Positions 15,239-28,546 of a stretch of DNA of 28,546 nucleotides are shown one piece after another. The translations under genes were made by a program, and so were the position numbers. The notes beneath the pieces are model-generated. The model was given only the letters and a program-made list of their open reading frames with translations. It was not told the origin of the DNA and ran no database searches. How positions within the stretch are numbered: position 1 is the stretch's first letter; each line of letters begins with the position of its first letter. Source of the DNA: Pilasporangium apinafurcum (lineage: Eukaryota; Oomycota; Peronosporomycetes; Pythiales; Pythiaceae). The stretch is from NCBI GenBank assembly GCA_001600495.1, contig BCKE01000089.1:1-28546 (forward strand). The letters are read 5' to 3'.

Positions 15239-18200
15239 CTACTCCTTGCTCATAAACTCCTCGTAGCTCTGACCGAAGAGCCGCTGGACGTCGCGCTGCA
15301 CGTCACTCTTGGAGATTTTCCAGCCCGTGCTCGCCATCTTGTCATACATGTCCACCAACACTTCGCCAATGATCTCACGCGAGTGACGCCACTTGTAGAT
15401 CAGCTGATCCAGCACACGCGCGTCTGAGTGCTGACTCGTGAACGCCGTGCCCAGAATCTCAATGCGCATGCGCGTCAGTTCATCGATGATCGACGGGTTG
15501 TTGCAATACCACCAGCAGCCGTATAGATGCAGATTACGGAACTTGTTGGCGGTCACCGTCACTTCGTGCTGGTTCACACGCGAAAGGAACGTCGCCAGGA
15601 ATTTCACCTTAGGGAACCTACGACACAATTTGATCAGAATGTCGACGTTGCTGGGCTTGACACCATCACCCGCCACACCCAAACGAGAGTTGATAGGACG
15701 CACGCTATCGAATTTCAGTGCGATCGGCAGCTTCTTCGCTTCTGCCAGTGGCAGCAACACCTTCAGCAACAGATCTGCACCGGTAGGTAACTCGTTCTCA
15801 GGGGTCACAGGTGCATCATCCGATGGATACTCAAAGTGAATGGGAACACTCGACATGAAATATTCGGGCTGCATGATGTTGATCCATTTCTCTAGATACG
15901 CACGCGCACCGTCCAAAGTGTATGGCAATTGAAACACGTCCAACGCTGGTTTCATTGACTGCCAATCACCTAACAAGATCTGATCCACACGCAGCGCCGA
16001 GCGAAAGTACTTGCGTGACCATTTTGGTGGCTCAGTGTTGTTGGCCGGATCACCCAACCAATGTCGCGCTTCTTCTGGCTCAAATGGGATGTTGGTCATC
16101 ACCGCATACTTGAGACCAGCGAGTCGGAAGACCGTATCAACGTATTCTTCTGAGTTTTGTTCCTTGAACCACGCCTGGATACCGGCCAAGTCACGTTTTT
16201 CCATCAAATGGCCCAATCCAAGTGCTTGGATGGTTGTGATCACTCCCCGACAGGCTTCCGAGATAGGGGATCGATCAATGAACAAGTGCTGCCAGATCAG
16301 TTCAGCCTGTTTCTCTTTTGAATAAGTATTAAACTCTTCAATCTCAATTGGGGCTGTCATCATGTACTCCGCTACCAGATAGTGGTATGTGAGCAGCTCA
16401 TTGATTCCCCACAGCATCAACTTCCCGTGAGTTGGTGGGAACAAATGTGTGTGCACATCAATCACATTCACAGTCGCCACCGCTTCGCGCACATACGCCG
16501 CGACTTCCTCCTTCGTGCTCAAGTACTCGCTGGTGTGGTGATTGCGCAACACATCACTCAACGTTTCCAGAGCACTCTGCTTTCCAGAGATCATACGCTG
16601 ATAGAGCGCAGCGACATCGGCTGCGAACGACGCGTAGACTTCGTTGGTCAAATCAAAATCCTTCACTGAGCTAAGCACCGTGGCCACTGCTACACCGACA
16701 CCGCTGGATACTTCGGAGGATGGTTCGGCTTGGGTAGGTTTCGTAAAGGTGTTACTGCTGCTCTTGCTGGCGGCAAACACATTTCGGCTTGCATGAAGCA
16801 GTAATTTTGCGATTTTTCCGTTTTCCCCATCGTTGAACTCATATTTCCCCGTTGAGATATTGGCAGACAGACCTGTGTCGTACTTCCATGTCTTTTCACT
16901 CATCGAGAAAATTGGTGTGTGGTCCTGAATCGGGTCCATTTCACCGACAAACACAGGGGAAGCAGTCATGTCGTCTCGCTTGGCATCTTCCTGCACTGGT
17001 GTCAAGAACCGCAAGATGGTTGCAGTCGCAAACGCCATAAACACGCTAGGACGATACATTGGATCGTTTTGCACGTTTGCGACAACGCTGCAGAATAACC
17101 GTACATGATATCGAAGTAGTGCATTCTGCGTGACCCAAAAGTTATCGAGACCAAAATGGCGATGTTTCATGCGAGGGATCCACTCTTCGTACATTTGCTG
17201 CGCGTCATCTTGTTGCACACCACGGGCTATCAGCGATGGCAAAATGTCCTTTTTGTACAGTAGATCCAAGTATTCGCCAATGATTGGGTAGTCCTGGAAC
17301 TTGTTGGCGGTTCTCAATCGTGAGAGCGCGAGCAGGTAGACCATCGCGGAGTTAACGGCATTCCCCAAACAGAACTTGAGCAAATGGTCTTTCTCGAGTT
17401 GCCCAGGGATCGTGCGAATGTGAGCACCAGGCTGTGCACGAAACGCGTCAGCGTCCAATGCACCCTGCAAATCCTCAATGACCACCGCTTTCTTCGGCCA
17501 GGGCTCCGTCAACGGCACGAGTGGGTTGCCTGCGCGATGCGACGTCAATCGGTCGACCATTGTGTTGTGAAAATGCACTTTGGCGGTCAAGTACGCATAG
17601 AATGCGCTCACATCCTGCGGTTTGCCTGTCCAGTCTGCAGCAAACACCAGACTATACGAGCAAGTTGTAGACGTACAGCACATCGTTAGCATATCAACGC
17701 TGTGATTAGATGCATATCTCAAATTTGCTACCGTTTGATGGTATCGCCATTGGATGGCAGGTTGTCCGTGTTGATAATGGACAAGATATTGTCTACCAAA
17801 CATATAACATCAAATGATGAGTAAAAGATACAACTACCTCATCAACGTGGTATTCTAAAATAATTACCTGGAATGGATTGAAATGCGTGGAATAGGAACT
17901 CAGCGAGGTCACGGATGACAGTACTGCCCTCGGTGAGACCGGCTTCGGTTACACCAAAGCCAATATAACGCAAGTTTGGCAACTTGCTCGGCAGTTCCAT
18001 GAAGGCAGCGCGGCCAGCGGCGGTGCCCAATGAGCCAACAGCTACAGACCAACAACCAATAGTAAATACAAGTCAACTTCCTCTACTCAGCGACAAGCAA
18101 CAACCTAGCAGATGCTATGCAGAGCACCAACCTTCCAACTCCAAAATCTCGGTCTTGATCTTTCCCTCAGCATCAATAGTGTCCACTTCGTACTTGCCCT

Positions 18201-23212: not shown

Positions 23213-23959
23213 ATGAACAGTCAGATGATGAATCAGTTTAGAGAGGTATATTCTATATCATAGGTTAAAATGCAGTAAAGAAGGTGACAAATGACAAAGC
23301 AAAAATCGAGATGTGATGGAGACACAAAGATTAAAAAAATACCGCTGTGGAATCAGTTTTTGCCATCAAAGGGGCCGCTATCGCCTCCAATTGCACACGC
23401 AGCAACCAAATACCATTCGATTTTTTTTGTCTATCGTTCGCCTACTATATCGTCTCTGCATCCACATGTTGAGTTCGCCGCAGTCCGCATCTTCAGCATT
23501 TTTTGTATATCAATTACGGGGTTCGTGGTTTTGTCGAAAAGCACAGCGGTCGTACGTCAGTTGACAGAAACGGTGGAGAGTAGGTCTACTAGGCCCAGGT
23601 GGTCGTTTGACGATGAGACTACTGAGTCCCTTGTTGTGGCAGCTCTGATAAAGCACCCACGCTTCATTTGCAAAGCAAATGCTATGCACTTGATGTCGAA
23701 TTGTAGAAGGTCTATCTCGAGCCGACTAGCTAACGATAAACGATGTGCATCGCAGTTGTGACAAAATCATGTTGCTTCGAGATAGTCCCTCCCCCCATTC
23801 CCCACCCACATTCCTACGATATCACCAGCGACAAAGAATGAACAACGATGAGAGTGACTATGCTTACCACGCCTTCAAAGTAAGAAGAAAATTGTTTGGT
23901 TCAACATAATCCACCAACATACATGCGGATCATGCTTCAGGATACGTGTGACATTGATT
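23213..23959. other. Intergenic; one unassigned 156-codon frame
   Basis: The plus-strand frame 23291-23761 (156 codons) has a C-terminal part (PRWSFDDETTESLVVAALIK) faintly like the Trp/acidic start of Myb/trihelix-type DNA-binding modules. The first half looks non-coding, and no splice model was convincing. It could be transposon debris. Confidence 0.3.
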
Positions 23960-24015
23960 TTAACCTTTATTTCCCAGGTGTCCTCTACCACGCGTGGTAC
24001 AGAACACCTGGGGAA
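23960..24015. repeat. Left terminal palindrome of the transposon
   Basis: TTAA, then CCTTTATTTCCCAGGTGT pairing with ACACCTGGGGAA (24004-24015). Inside is the perfect 14-mer TACCACGCGTGGTA (23986-23999). As RNA this would form a long stem with a 4x4 internal loop. Confidence 0.85.
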
Positions 24016-24071
24016 AATAATTACACTCATCCGTTTCCGGAATCATAGCAGTGAGGTTGTTTATCACCTCA
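23964..24071 (-). ncRNA. Candidate Fanzor guide-RNA (fRNA/omega RNA) scaffold
   Basis: The segment from the Fanzor stop codon to the element end, on the gene's strand. It holds two hairpins: TGAGGT/ACCTCA (24052-24071, overlapping the stop) and the large terminal palindrome (23971-24015). Known TnpB/Fanzor guide RNAs come from this position and take their guide from the flank just outside the element, here 23959 downward. Placement is by analogy; expression is unknown. Confidence 0.4.
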
Positions 24072-25070
24072 GTTTTTGATTTCGAGTACCAATTCATTCT
24101 CTTTCCTCGTGAACGCCTCGAGTCTCCTCTTTTTCTTCATTTGGTCGATGAATAGTCTCAAAATGTTGATTGCGGCGTTGATGTCACGGTCCCACAATGT
24201 GCGATGGCATTCACTATTTTTGCAGTGTCGCACACCATAAAGACCGTCACTGACAACTTTTCCGTCAAGGACGAACCCCTTCATCTTCTTGTGACAANCA
24301 CAACACAGCTTGCTCGTCCTNAACTCGTCCACATCANCAACACGACACCTGGAACCAATTTTCTTCTCTAGGGTCGTTGTGGGAACAGCAATGTTTCCTT
24401 TAGCTGAGCTTGTGCAACTTGCGTTTCCATACGCGAGAATCTGGCCGAATAAGCTATACTGAGTTTGGGCGCTTGTGTGAGCCAGCAGTGAAACAGCACT
24501 CTTGATTATCTTGCCTTGGCGCTTTTCGAAACAGTCACTGTTGTGAAGACGTATCTGCAAGCGCATCCACTTACACAACCAGGAGTAGAACGTCAATCGG
24601 TTGCTGACTTGAAAATTCTGCCTTACTTGTTGAGCGATCATAACCAACATCTGACTCATATAGGGTTTCTTCTCTGTTGGTTCATAAACTGAAGGGTGCT
24701 GGGCCATGTAAATATTCTGACTGGTCTCCAAGTCAGAATGAACCTTTCCGCTGCCGGCCAAGTTGGCTATTGCAGATGTGCATCGATTGAAAAAGTTATT
24801 ATCCAATGGAGGGAGTTCTTCGCCAGCTTCCAATAATCGCAGAAAATGGACGGATGCCAGCATAGATGCCTCACATGCTATTCTTGAACAAAGTCGCACA
24901 GCCTCATCAATCTTTTCCGCCATTTGTTTCTCGTTGCAAAACTTTCGCCGCCCAGTCTTCACAGTGGTGTATACGCTTTACTTTTGTCGAACTTTCCGTT
25001 CCGCAAAACCCGGACGGGCTCTTCGCTTTTTAGTGGTGTTCTCTTCAATACCATCGCTCGTTGATGCCAT
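24069..25070 (-). pseudogene. Fanzor1 (eukaryotic TnpB-like RNA-guided nuclease), degenerate
   Basis: ATG at 25070 opens a Lys/Arg-rich start (MASTSDGIEENTTKKRRARPG) that meets an in-frame TAA at 24978-24980. The same frame then stays open to 24069. Numbering from the GTG codon at 24962 (297 residues): a Fanzor1-like helical N-terminal region (about 20-140), then YGNASCTSSAKGNIAVP (178-194), DVDE-RTSKLCC (210-221; RuvC-II Glu and first zinc Cys pair), RHCKNSEC (245-252; second pair) and LWDRDINAAINIL (RuvC-III, RD motif). This fits the family pattern [TS][TS]xx-C4 finger-RD. The RuvC-I Asp should lie at least 125 residues before the TS and is absent; the sequence jumps near 170-176, suggesting an internal deletion. 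Three N bases (24298, 24321, 24337) fall in the catalytic part. Intact relatives cut DNA guided by an RNA from the element's end; this copy should be inactive. Confidence 0.85.
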
Positions 25071-25086
25071 TTTAGCACAACATTAA

Positions 25087-25466
25087 AAAACAAGGACGCC
25101 TCGTAGTTGGTTTGATTTTTTCGGTGCCTTTGATTATGCTGTTTCTCAAAGCTGCAGTTCTTTCTATCTTGACAAATGGTGTTGAAGTAACACTTAATGG
25201 ATGGGTACTAGGACGTGAGGTGGTAAATACTTGAATTCAATACGCTTCGCTATTGAGAAACCGGAAACGATTCATTCAAGAGTTGATTTTTCTAACTCCA
25301 TATATCTTAACCTTTTTTCTCCATCCAAGGTGTATAATTTCATTTTTCTGGAAACGCGATTGATCGTCAGCATGGTCTTTCAAGATGATTGCACACGCAG
25401 CAAGAGCCACCAAGGAGTCTCTCCATCCAATGAATCCTAAAGTCTACTCTCAAGGCAATCTTAGTT
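25087..25466. other. Fanzor-upstream part of the transposon, no gene recognised
   Basis: Lies between the Fanzor start and the right palindrome. Short frames on both strands show no transposase motif. It may hold the Fanzor promoter; no clear Inr was seen. Confidence 0.4.
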
Positions 25467-25527
25467 TTAATCTTTATTCCCCACATCATTTCTACAACGC
25501 GTTGTACAAGTGGGGAATAAAGGTTAA
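25467..25527. repeat. Right terminal palindrome of the transposon
   Basis: A 61 bp palindrome: TTAAtCTTTATTCCCCAC (25467-25484) pairs with GTGGGGAATAAAGgTTAA (25510-25527) around the perfect 14-mer TACAACGCGTTGTA (25493-25506). It has TTAA at both edges, so this end alone resembles a complete miniature element. Confidence 0.85.
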
Positions 25528-25776
25528 AACATCTGTAATTAGTGTCATTTAGAGAATTGTACCAGTTGACAACGGACTCGTTATGGGTTACACCATCCAA
25601 GTGTAACCTCAGCCTTCAACCCATAAAACCTTATTCACGAGGTTTTTTACCCATCACCACTGTCATCATTGCTTAGTGACTGAAGAGCTCCAATTGGATC
25701 TGGCAGCAGATCCACAAAGGAAGTGGAGACGAATCACGGCAGCTAAAGGAGAAGAGGAAGCGAAAGGAAGAAAACG

Positions 25777-28546
25777 ATGTTCCAGCCACTGCAAGGCGCA
25801 TTCTCCGACGATACTAGGGCTGTTTGCATTGGCAGTGGACGTTTTCTGGTACTATATTTTGTCACATTTTTAAGGTATTGATGGACAGCTTTTGATGGCA
25901 TAAGTTCGTCTGTTGTTGATCAATGATAGCGAGCGCTGTTGATACCGGTGCTCAATGGCGTGGGGAGTAATGTGATCGTGGCTCAAACGCGCAGCACGGA
26001 CTTTGCTACCACCTGCAGTCAGGCAAAGGGCGTGTACGAAGTGGACATCATCCAGCGTGATGGCAATGTTCATACAGAACAAGTGACGCTTGCAGGTAAC
26101 TAACGCAAAAGGTATAACTGAAGACGAGTCGACTGTATACTAAAAGTGTACTTTTTCGTTTATTAAATGTGTAGCGGTGGGTTCTTTAGGCGACGCAAAC
26201 GGTCGTGTTGCGTTCATGGAGCTGCCCAGCAAATTGCCGCTGCTGCAGTATATTGGTATGGGCGTCACGGAGAGCGGGATCGCAAAAGGCAGCAGTGCCA
26301 TCATTGCACTGACTGAATTCCTTTACCGTTGTTTCCAAGCGATTCCTGGTGCGTCTGTGATATCTTAGAGACATATGATTATGTACTCTTGTTTGATTCG
26401 TGACTATTTGGTACTGGATGCAGAAAATGTGCTCTCAGTAATCAACACCGATAATTTCCCGTCCAATGGATCTACCATTCGAACGTAAGTCTATATTTTA
26501 ACTGCTATATTACTTGTGTCATTTTTTAGTGATAATTTATTGTTGTGTTGCTAATGCGTCTGTATAGATTGGTGCTGGAGACGCAATGGAGCAATGGACC
26601 GAGCGATCTCACCGCATTCCATGCGTACTTGAACAGAAAAGTCCACTTCCACAACACCATGGTCGATCGCTTGACGTCCCATCGACCAACTGACACGCAT
26701 GTGCCATTGACAGAGCCTTTACCAACGAAAGCGTTGGTCATTGAAGACTTGCATGAGGTTTTGGACAAAGCGAAATTCAGCGCCTTACCCGGTGTGATCA
26801 TTCGCACGAAAGCTGGTGATCTTGAGCGTGACCATTTGCTCAAGCTCAGCGTGGCCAATGCAGTCCACACGGCGATGGTGTATATCTTGGCACTTTCACG
26901 TGTGAAGAACACTCGTCACTTGCAGGAACTTCCCATTGTCCGCGAGTTTTTGGATTTGCTTTTCAACAAGGATATCATCCCATCACTTGTGAGTCGTGGG
27001 ATCTCCAAGGAGGAAGTACAGAGTACGTACAATGAATGGATGAGCCGCGTGGAGCACAACTACTTCGGATTGGATCCTTTTTGGGTGGGGCAAAACGCGA
27101 TATTCAAGTATAATGTGCGGTTATTCAGTAGCGTGGCTGCACTGGTGGCCAAGGATGCCAACTATCGCCCCAGTATATTCATGGCGTATGCAACCGCCAT
27201 CATTTTGCGGTACTTGACGCCAGTACAAGAAGATTCCAAGAAGAATGTGACCACGGCTGTCTTTGTGGGTGAAATGGACCCGATTCAGGACCACACGCCC
27301 ATCTTCTCTACAACTGAGAAAACATGGGTATATGCGAACGGATTGACAGCAAATGTATCAACGGGGAAATATGAGTTCAACGATGGGGAAAACGGAAAAA
27401 TCGCAAAATTACTGCTTCATGCAAGCCGAAATGTGTTTGCCGCCAGCAAGAGCAGCAGTAACACCTTTACGAAACCTACCCAAGCCGAACCATCCTCCGA
27501 AGTATCCAGCGGTGTCGGTGTAGCAGTGGCCACGGTGCTTAGCTCAGTGAAGGATTTTGATTTGACCAACGAAGTCTACGCGTCGTTCGCAGCCGATGTC
27601 GCTGCGCTCTATCAGCGTATGATCTCTGGAAAGCAGAGTGCTCTGGAAACGTTGAGTGATGTGTTGCGCAATCACCACACCAGCGAGTACTTGAGCACGA
27701 AGGAGGAAGTCGCGGCGTATGTGCGCGAAGCGGTGGCGACTGTGAATGTGATTGATGTGCACACACATTTGTTCCCACCAACTCACGGGAAGTTGATGCT
27801 GTGGGGAATCAATGAGCTGCTCACATACCACTATCTGGTAGCGGAGTACATGATGACAGCCCCAATTGAGATTGAAGAGTTTAATACTTATTCAAAAGAG
27901 AAACAGGCTGAACTGATCTGGCAGCACTTGTTCATTGATCGATCCCCTATCTCGGAAGCCTGTCGGGGAGTGATCACAACCATCCAAGCACTTGGATTGG
28001 GCCATTTGATGGAAAAACGTGACTTGGCCGGTATCCAGGCGTGGTTCAAGGAACAAAACTCAGAAGAATACGTTGATACGGTCTTCCGACTCGCTGGTCT
28101 CAAGTATGCGGTGATGACCAACATCCCATTTGAGCCAGAAGAAGCGCGACATTGGTTGGGTGATCCGGCCAACAACACTGAGCCACCAAAATGGTCACGC
28201 AAGTACTTTCGCTCGGCGCTGCGTGTGGATCAGATCTTGTTAGGTGATTGGCAGTCAATGAAACCAGCGTTGGACGTGTTTCAATTGCCATACACTTTGG
28301 ACGGTGCGCGTGCGTATCTAGAGAAATGGATCAACATCATGCAGCCCGAATATTTCATGTCGAGTGTTCCCATTCACTTTGAGTATCCATCGGATGATGC
28401 ACCTGTGACCCCTGAGAACGAGTTACCTACCGGTGCAGATCTGTTGCTGAAGGTGTTGCTGCCACTGGCAGAAGCGAAGAAGCTGCCGATCGCACTGAAA
28501 TTCGATAGCGTGCGTCCTATCAACTCTCGTTTGGGTGTGGCGGGTG
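25777..28546 (+). CDS. Fused uronate/polyol dehydrogenase + uronate isomerase, rightward copy (3' end missing)
   Basis: Exons 25777-25848, 25930-26095, 26175-26348, 26424-26484 and 26568 to the window edge. Introns are 75-83 bp, at the same positions and phases as in the leftward copy. The start MFQPL is the first ATG after a possible Inr near 25634; codons upstream resemble the other copy, so a longer N-terminus is not excluded. Dehydrogenase half: AVCIGSGRFLRALLIPVLNG, IGMGVTESGI, NTDNFPSNG, KVHFHNTMVDRLTSH, and an intact K-x4-N-x2-H (KLSVANAVH). Isomerase half: VIDVHTHLFPP and onward, identical to the other copy. About 430 bp to the stop is missing. The Fanzor transposon ends 250 bp before the start codon and may affect expression. 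Confidence 0.85.
27358..28546 (+). repeat. Inverted repeat arm B (at least 1,189 bp)
   Basis: Partner of 15667-16855, with arms facing each other across 10,502 bp. Identity begins sharply at TCAACGGGGAAATATGAG (27358) and continues to the window end. Confidence 0.93.

Follow-up and report, generated by a model that had tools for sequence, protein, structure and literature searches.

The element at 23964-25523 of the window (the window being the whole 28,546-nucleotide stretch of Pilasporangium apinafurcum DNA that was analysed) is probably a dead copy, with an internal deletion, from a family of Fanzor1 DNA transposons that is present in many copies and apparently non-autonomous. Members of the family would have been moved in trans, with RNA-guided cutting of empty sites. 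The dozens of copies in this genome, with deletion classes that keep the presumed RNA part and asymmetric flanks, allow computational tests of a 'cut the empty site' model of how Fanzor1 nucleases benefit their host transposons. The closest published case is the TTAN-flanked Fanzor1 element of insect viruses, itself unassigned to a transposon class.

The element is a discrete unit of 1.56 kb bordered on both sides by TTAA tetranucleotides (23960-23963 and 25524-25527). Its ends are inverted copies of CCTTTATT(T/C)CCCA, the left one (CCTTTATTTCCCA) and the right one read in reverse (CCTTTATTCCCCA) being identical at 12 of 13 positions, which bears out the initial annotation as far as TTAA on either side and 13-base inverted ends are concerned. 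As a description of the termini, however, the 13-base repeats were incomplete, since both ends are hairpins of 55-60 bases; an inverted pair of 24 nt (88%) is formed by 23958-23981 and 25506-25529. The ends shared by the family read TTARCCTTTATTCCCC. The features discussed below are:

23960..23963, no strand: left TTAA flank (TTAA at this place in 16 of the 39 paired copies).
23964..23976, plus strand: left terminal inverted repeat CCTTTATTTCCCA (sequence read, inverted-pair search, end counts).
23964..24018, no strand: left-end hairpin, which lies 3' of the gene and may be the final stem of a Fanzor guide RNA (inverted-pair search, fold z -5.29, covariation).
23960..24072, minus strand: candidate guide RNA, the guide presumably being the flank at 23959 and lower (fold, covariation; analogy with the excerpts of PMC10432273 and PMC10711439).
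24069..24962, minus strand: truncated Fanzor1-type open reading frame, 297 codons; zinc finger and RuvC-III end kept, RuvC-I absent (ORF list, translations, profile matches).
24430..24449, no strand: junction of a ~0.9 kb internal deletion relative to longer copies, element position 471-490 (copy alignments).
25467..25523, no strand: right-end hairpin, which lies 5' of the gene and has no observed compensatory change (inverted-pair search, covariation).
25511..25523, minus strand: right terminal inverted repeat (sequence read, inverted-pair search).
25524..25528, minus strand: right flank TTAAA, which is TTTAA from the gene side; proposed target-adjacent motif TTTAN (flank counts).

The gene, initially read as a Fanzor1 with its C-terminal signature, is indeed of TnpB/Fanzor type, but it is not whole, about 0.9 kb being missing by comparison with 13 longer loci. 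Residues 205-267 match PF07282 (Cas12f1-like_TNB) at 1.2e-7, above the cut-off, and residues 207-269 match the NCBIfam model guided_TnpB at 1.3e-7 with 31 bits against 100, below the cut-off of that model. The C-terminal zinc-finger and RuvC-III region of TnpB/Fanzor proteins is thus present, and the complete RuvC D-E-D triad (DPG, alternative E) is absent from the window copy, which has no RuvC-I. It is the family, rather than the window copy itself, that is Fanzor1-like. For a 427-residue stop-free stretch in another copy (L059), the best match among solved structures is the Spizellomyces Fanzor (1.4e-6), while Guillardia Fanzor1 matches the window reading frame at 0.066.

A search of the same genome with the element, of the kind that the initial annotation had advised for its two ends, uncovered a repeat family. 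The 36.5 Mb assembly (136 contigs) holds 315 candidate places for the window element, of which the best 40, window included, were scored; apart from the window itself they are 87-93% identical to it. End-to-end copies account for 23 of these 40 (22 of the 39 others plus the window), the rest being incomplete on the left, on the right or on both sides. The 17-base end, with at most one mismatch, occurs 516 times (247+269), as against 0+0 for a reversed control pattern, and this count and the repeat places together show that the window element is not a product of chance. The short form with the same junction is found in 39 of the 40 scored places (38 of the 39 others plus the window), the long form at L047 alone.

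Longer copies and further deletion classes were revealed by 20 right-end places fetched with their flanks, in a genome search in which the best 40 of 156 candidates were scored. Thirteen loci hold ~0.88-0.91 kb of extra sequence at element position 471-490, and two other deletion classes were recognized, 646/1124 (L056, L058 and L061) and 306/1222 (L060 and L064). Translation of 10 longer copies showed that in several of them the added sequence encodes a mid-protein part with the RuvC-I motif (e.g. GLDPGRKKIF), and that others have VDEF-TSK, zinc-finger and RD-NAA stretches; a single open frame throughout was found in none of the 10. Since RuvC-I lies in the extra stretch, the window copy and the multiplied short subfamily to which it belongs have lost part of the catalytic site. 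Selection on the gene is not clearly seen in the codon-position counts of changes among present copies. Singleton changes at codon positions 1/2/3 number 33/29/28 (long copies) and 39/42/28 (short copies) in the C-terminal part, and 36/29/38 (long) and 53/58/52 (short) in the N-terminal part, near-even distributions that point to decay of the copies observed. Among the variants common to several short copies there is only a slight third-position excess (55/60/73 in the C-terminal part, 65/52/73 in the N-terminal part).

The two end hairpins differ in their pattern of change. Modest compensatory change is observed in the left hairpin, 3' of the gene: in an alignment of 31 of the 39 two-ended copies (30 distinct rows, eight copies with hairpin deletions being left out), there are 27 two-sided changes against 14.3 in shuffles, a value reached by 2 of 500, and the covariation score is reached by 1 of 500, a kind of score that relatedness inflates. 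Neither the number of pairs with two-sided changes (6, where shuffles give 5.9) nor that of further pair types is elevated. In the right hairpin, aligned in 36 of the 39 copies (three with a longer loop left out), no two-sided change was seen, against 1.0 in shuffles. The stretch that begins at the stop codon and takes in the left hairpin has a folding z-score of -5.29, much of which the palindrome alone would yield, and small preceding stems appear in the centroid structure. According to the available part of PMC10711439, Fanzor1 guide RNAs come from the 3' end of the gene, include the inverted repeat and duplication, and extend ~15 bases into the flank.

Flanks were compared over 61 loci, the anchors being found for 60 on the left and 59 on the right and a recognizable end being absent in 17 left and two right cases; this left 40 end pairs, of which L035 was dropped as misplaced, giving 39 paired copies. 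Among these, the tetranucleotide is TTAA on the left in 16, on the right in 25 and on both sides in 11, and left and right tetranucleotides agree at all four bases in 15 and at the first three in 25. A clean TTAA duplication is thus rejected by the copy-by-copy comparison. Because the copies are old, decay accounts for part of this inexactness, and the departures from TTAA are position-specific, the base adjoining each end being the one that varies. TA is found at both ends in 36 of 39, which is compatible with TA, NTA or TTAA, and TAA on the right in all 39 (56 of 57 when all right ends are counted). The base outside the tetranucleotide is lopsided, with A at right +5 in 33 of 39 as against the mirror-image T at left -5 in 15 of 39 (Fisher p 5e-5); this would be unexpected from a symmetric transposase, and an extended right-hairpin stem could explain it. 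Identity between the bases at left -4 and right +1 is seen in 28 of the 39 copies, where permutation predicts 20.1 (p 0.0015); the test covered 100 position pairs, two others of which fell below 0.02, about the chance level. The comparison of empty and filled sites, also advised at the outset, could be made for one insertion, a short copy inside a mariner-type element, where an empty relative found with the joined flanks has four bases, CTGG; the size is the expected one, but the match to TTAA is poor, with three of four bases different.

On the reading that we favour, a transposase that recognizes the common 13-17 base ends would have moved the copies in trans. An intact Fanzor1 would have used an RNA from its own 3' end, with the left hairpin as its last stem and the left flank as guide, and would have cut the empty site adjoining a TTTAN motif, the break then being repaired from the copy that holds the element. 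The 'ghost' loci of Spizellomyces would have their counterpart in those deletion copies in which the RNA part is retained. The compensatory changes of the left hairpin and the flank asymmetry speak for this reading; the modest size of the hairpin signal, the absence of a throughout-open frame in the longer copies translated, the poor fit of the empty site to TTAA and the 17 of 60 left anchors that lack a recognizable end speak against it. The available part of PMC10432273 gives TTAAN as the target-adjacent motif of Guillardia Fanzor1.

The transposase searches did not identify the mobilizing enzyme, and none is assigned. That a TA-type (mariner) transposase, or a still unnamed DDE transposase, did so, with TA as the duplication and the next base as part of the inverted repeat, is a possibility to be taken seriously, if short of probable. 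It agrees with the TA at both ends of most copies, with the 59 DDE_3 stretches present in the genome and with the published cases of PUl-1 and PUl-4 in Pythium ultimum, where Fanzor1 lies in elements that have mariner ends (PMC3627910, in excerpt). However, none of the four DDE_3 genes read near copies (L071-L074, 2.5-3.1 kb each) is enclosed by the family ends. One of these, at L071:742-3045, is a mariner-type element that has its own, different inverted ends and an open 333-codon transposase stretch and is interrupted by a 1.07 kb Fanzor-derived copy, so that one larger element comprising both Fanzor and mariner gene is rejected. Against the same reading, the base adjoining the left end does not behave as though simply inherited with the inverted repeat, its 12 G requiring 11 changes with no clustering on the copies' tree (weakly resolved, with no shuffle control). 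That G is associated with a C of the inner arm, being found in 11 of 25 cases as against 1 of 13 (p 0.03). Another DDE_3 stretch lies near a copy at C7:591696.

That a piggyBac-type transposase mobilizes the element, which would then be a non-autonomous piggyBac-like element with Fanzor1 cargo, can be entertained only tentatively. The initial annotation had seen a transposon with piggyBac hallmarks, and the part that holds is that a Fanzor-type gene is carried between inverted ends and TTAA flanks, both ends being present in 39 copies, whereas piggyBac itself is not established. The ~13-base inverted ends starting with CC are of piggyBac form, and the TTAA/TTARCC ends, end palindromes, four-base footprint at the one empty site and agreement between left -4 and right +1 all speak for this reading; against it are the small number of copies with exact TTAA on both sides and the position-specific departures. 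The expected DDE_Tnp_1_7 transposase with the same ends did not emerge. A six-frame genome search (E 0.001) gave three loci, each read with ~1.5 kb on both sides, and around them neither TTAA-flanked inverted ends nor, at up to three mismatches, the family ends were found, bar one three-mismatch match in L069; these loci are thereby rejected as autonomous partners. One of them, L068:1420-3042, is a piggyBac-type gene with a 540-codon open frame and no inverted ends found; it is possibly domesticated, which is a guess. The DDE_Tnp_4 (6) and DDE_1 (11) matches were read by eye against the 100 of 516 end matches listed, and none lies within ~5 kb of these ends. TTAA is also the target of Kolobok and Sola3. 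For this reason, and because Fanzor1 elements with TTAN duplications and 13-base ends have been published (PMC3627910, in excerpt), TTAA alone does not single out piggyBac. The resemblance is genuine as to form; in substance it is unproven. A limited literature search, in the parts available of PMC3627910, PMC12324416, PMC10711439, PMC10432273 and PMC11423790, found no report of a piggyBac-Fanzor1 element. Nor does the element have the asymmetric terminal repeats and insertion after a T-rich site of Helitron2, its inverted ends being symmetric and bordered by TA on both sides.

A second large family, here called family B, has the 17-base end of the Fanzor1 element as its own left end. In the best 40 of 294 candidate places scored, the match at this end begins within query bases 1-11 in all 40, and the end reads TTARCC in 9 of the 11 rows aligned. 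Another 20 exact end matches were sorted by eye into the Fanzor1 family (11), family B (6), a family C (2) and a solo hairpin (1). Family B places include L096-L102, L066:2591-2996 and L041:358-480. The family encodes a TnpB-type protein different from that of the Fanzor1 family (PF07282 8e-14, HTH_OrfB_IS605 2e-7) and, upstream of it, a remnant of a serine recombinase, found in family B only, that resembles IS607 transposases (NF033518 2.5e-9). This is the only recombinase gene found joined to the 17-base end, and family B's IS607-type enzyme might on that account have moved the Fanzor1 element in trans. We nevertheless consider this improbable. The stretch is below the cut-offs of both NCBIfam (37 of 110 bits) and Pfam (PF00239 0.0078, 16.8 of 23.3 bits), two other pieces gave no Pfam match, and a PF00239 search of the genome gave three places, none of them a known family B place. 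Moreover, the right end of family B, GAGG or near it, has no inverted repeat and is followed by TTA in 6 of 20 places read (of the 39 other scored places), unlike the Fanzor1 element. IS607 elements, with serine recombinases and in known cases with Fanzor2, are described without inverted repeats or duplications (PMC3627910, in excerpt), whereas the Fanzor1 element has inverted ends.

The end common to family B and the Fanzor1 element is notable, and a chance insertion may have picked it up. It would be a bolder proposal, on the unlikely side in our judgement, that sharing the motif-side end TTARCCTTTATTCCCCA is a molecular link between Fanzor1 elements and an IS607-type TnpB/Fanzor2-like family, one recombinase or end having been passed on, and that the TTTAN lopsidedness is the footprint of the Fanzor motif on surviving insertions. 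Such an end bears on the proposed origin of Fanzor1 from IS607-borne Fanzor2, for which few intermediates are named in the available part of PMC10711439; in the accessible portion of the 2023 NAR paper, no Fanzor1 was seen in IS607 elements. Two Fanzor1 copies (L013:563 and L107) start exactly where a family B element has its right end.

Finally, an account in which each hairpin is a small insertion of its own, next to a piece of Fanzor with which it has nothing to do, is highly improbable and, as a general account, refuted. Three solo hairpins without Fanzor interior are known (L095:72-137, L120 and L121, flanked by TTAA/TTAG-like tetranucleotides), but in 39 copies the gene or one of its deletion forms is enclosed by both ends, and 16 of 18 further hairpin places fetched have a Fanzor-side interior.

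The family, trans-mobilized and empty-site-cutting on the reading that we favour, can be set beside several published systems, described here from excerpts of the articles cited. The insect-virus elements (SFav-1, HVav-1 and kin, with the SfAV Fanzor) likewise have Fanzor1 only, 13-base inverted ends, TTAN flanks and no known transposase, and their inverted repeat and duplication are predicted to lie within the guide RNA (PMC3627910, PMC10711439). Compared by description only, they are viral and have reported TTAN duplications, whereas here there are a cellular genome, many copies, hairpin ends and no clean duplication. Spu-1 of Spizellomyces punctatus has inverted ends, full, partial and Fanzor-less ghost loci that keep the RNA part, a conserved 5'-side motif and no transposase found between its ends (PMC10432273), all as here or, for the RNA part, as proposed here; it differs in its CATA motif and 30-base ends, as against the TTAA-like flanks and hairpin ends of the present family. 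Guillardia theta Fanzor1 has a TTAA(N) target-adjacent motif similar to the one proposed here (PMC10432273, PMC11423790), but its locus is reported, in the literature available, as seemingly without the inverted repeats found here. PiggyBac-like elements share TTAACC ends, ~13-base repeats and palindromes near the ends (PMC12324416, a preprint, in excerpt), whereas no linked DDE_Tnp_1_7 gene was found here and the flanks are not a clean TTAA duplication. PUl-1 and PUl-4 are also Fanzor1 in inverted-repeat elements, one of them without a transposase (PMC3627910), and differ in their TA duplication and mariner ends, a comparison made by description and not by end sequences.

A few observations lie beside this argument. 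A scan of viral contigs for relatives gave three pattern matches and no confirmed relative. Several left-truncated copies start within the left hairpin, and another family (L091:121-261 and L087) has 38 bases in common with the Fanzor1 right end and then diverges. Two long copies on contig C7, L051 and L054, roughly 27 kb apart, are 99.9% alike over 1803 bases, which may reflect recent duplication or gene conversion; other pairs compared are ~83-93% alike. In the window itself, 15239-17803 and 26545-28545 carry long open reading frames on opposite strands with long identical protein stretches, which, judged by eye, make up a gene duplication flanking the Fanzor copy on either side.
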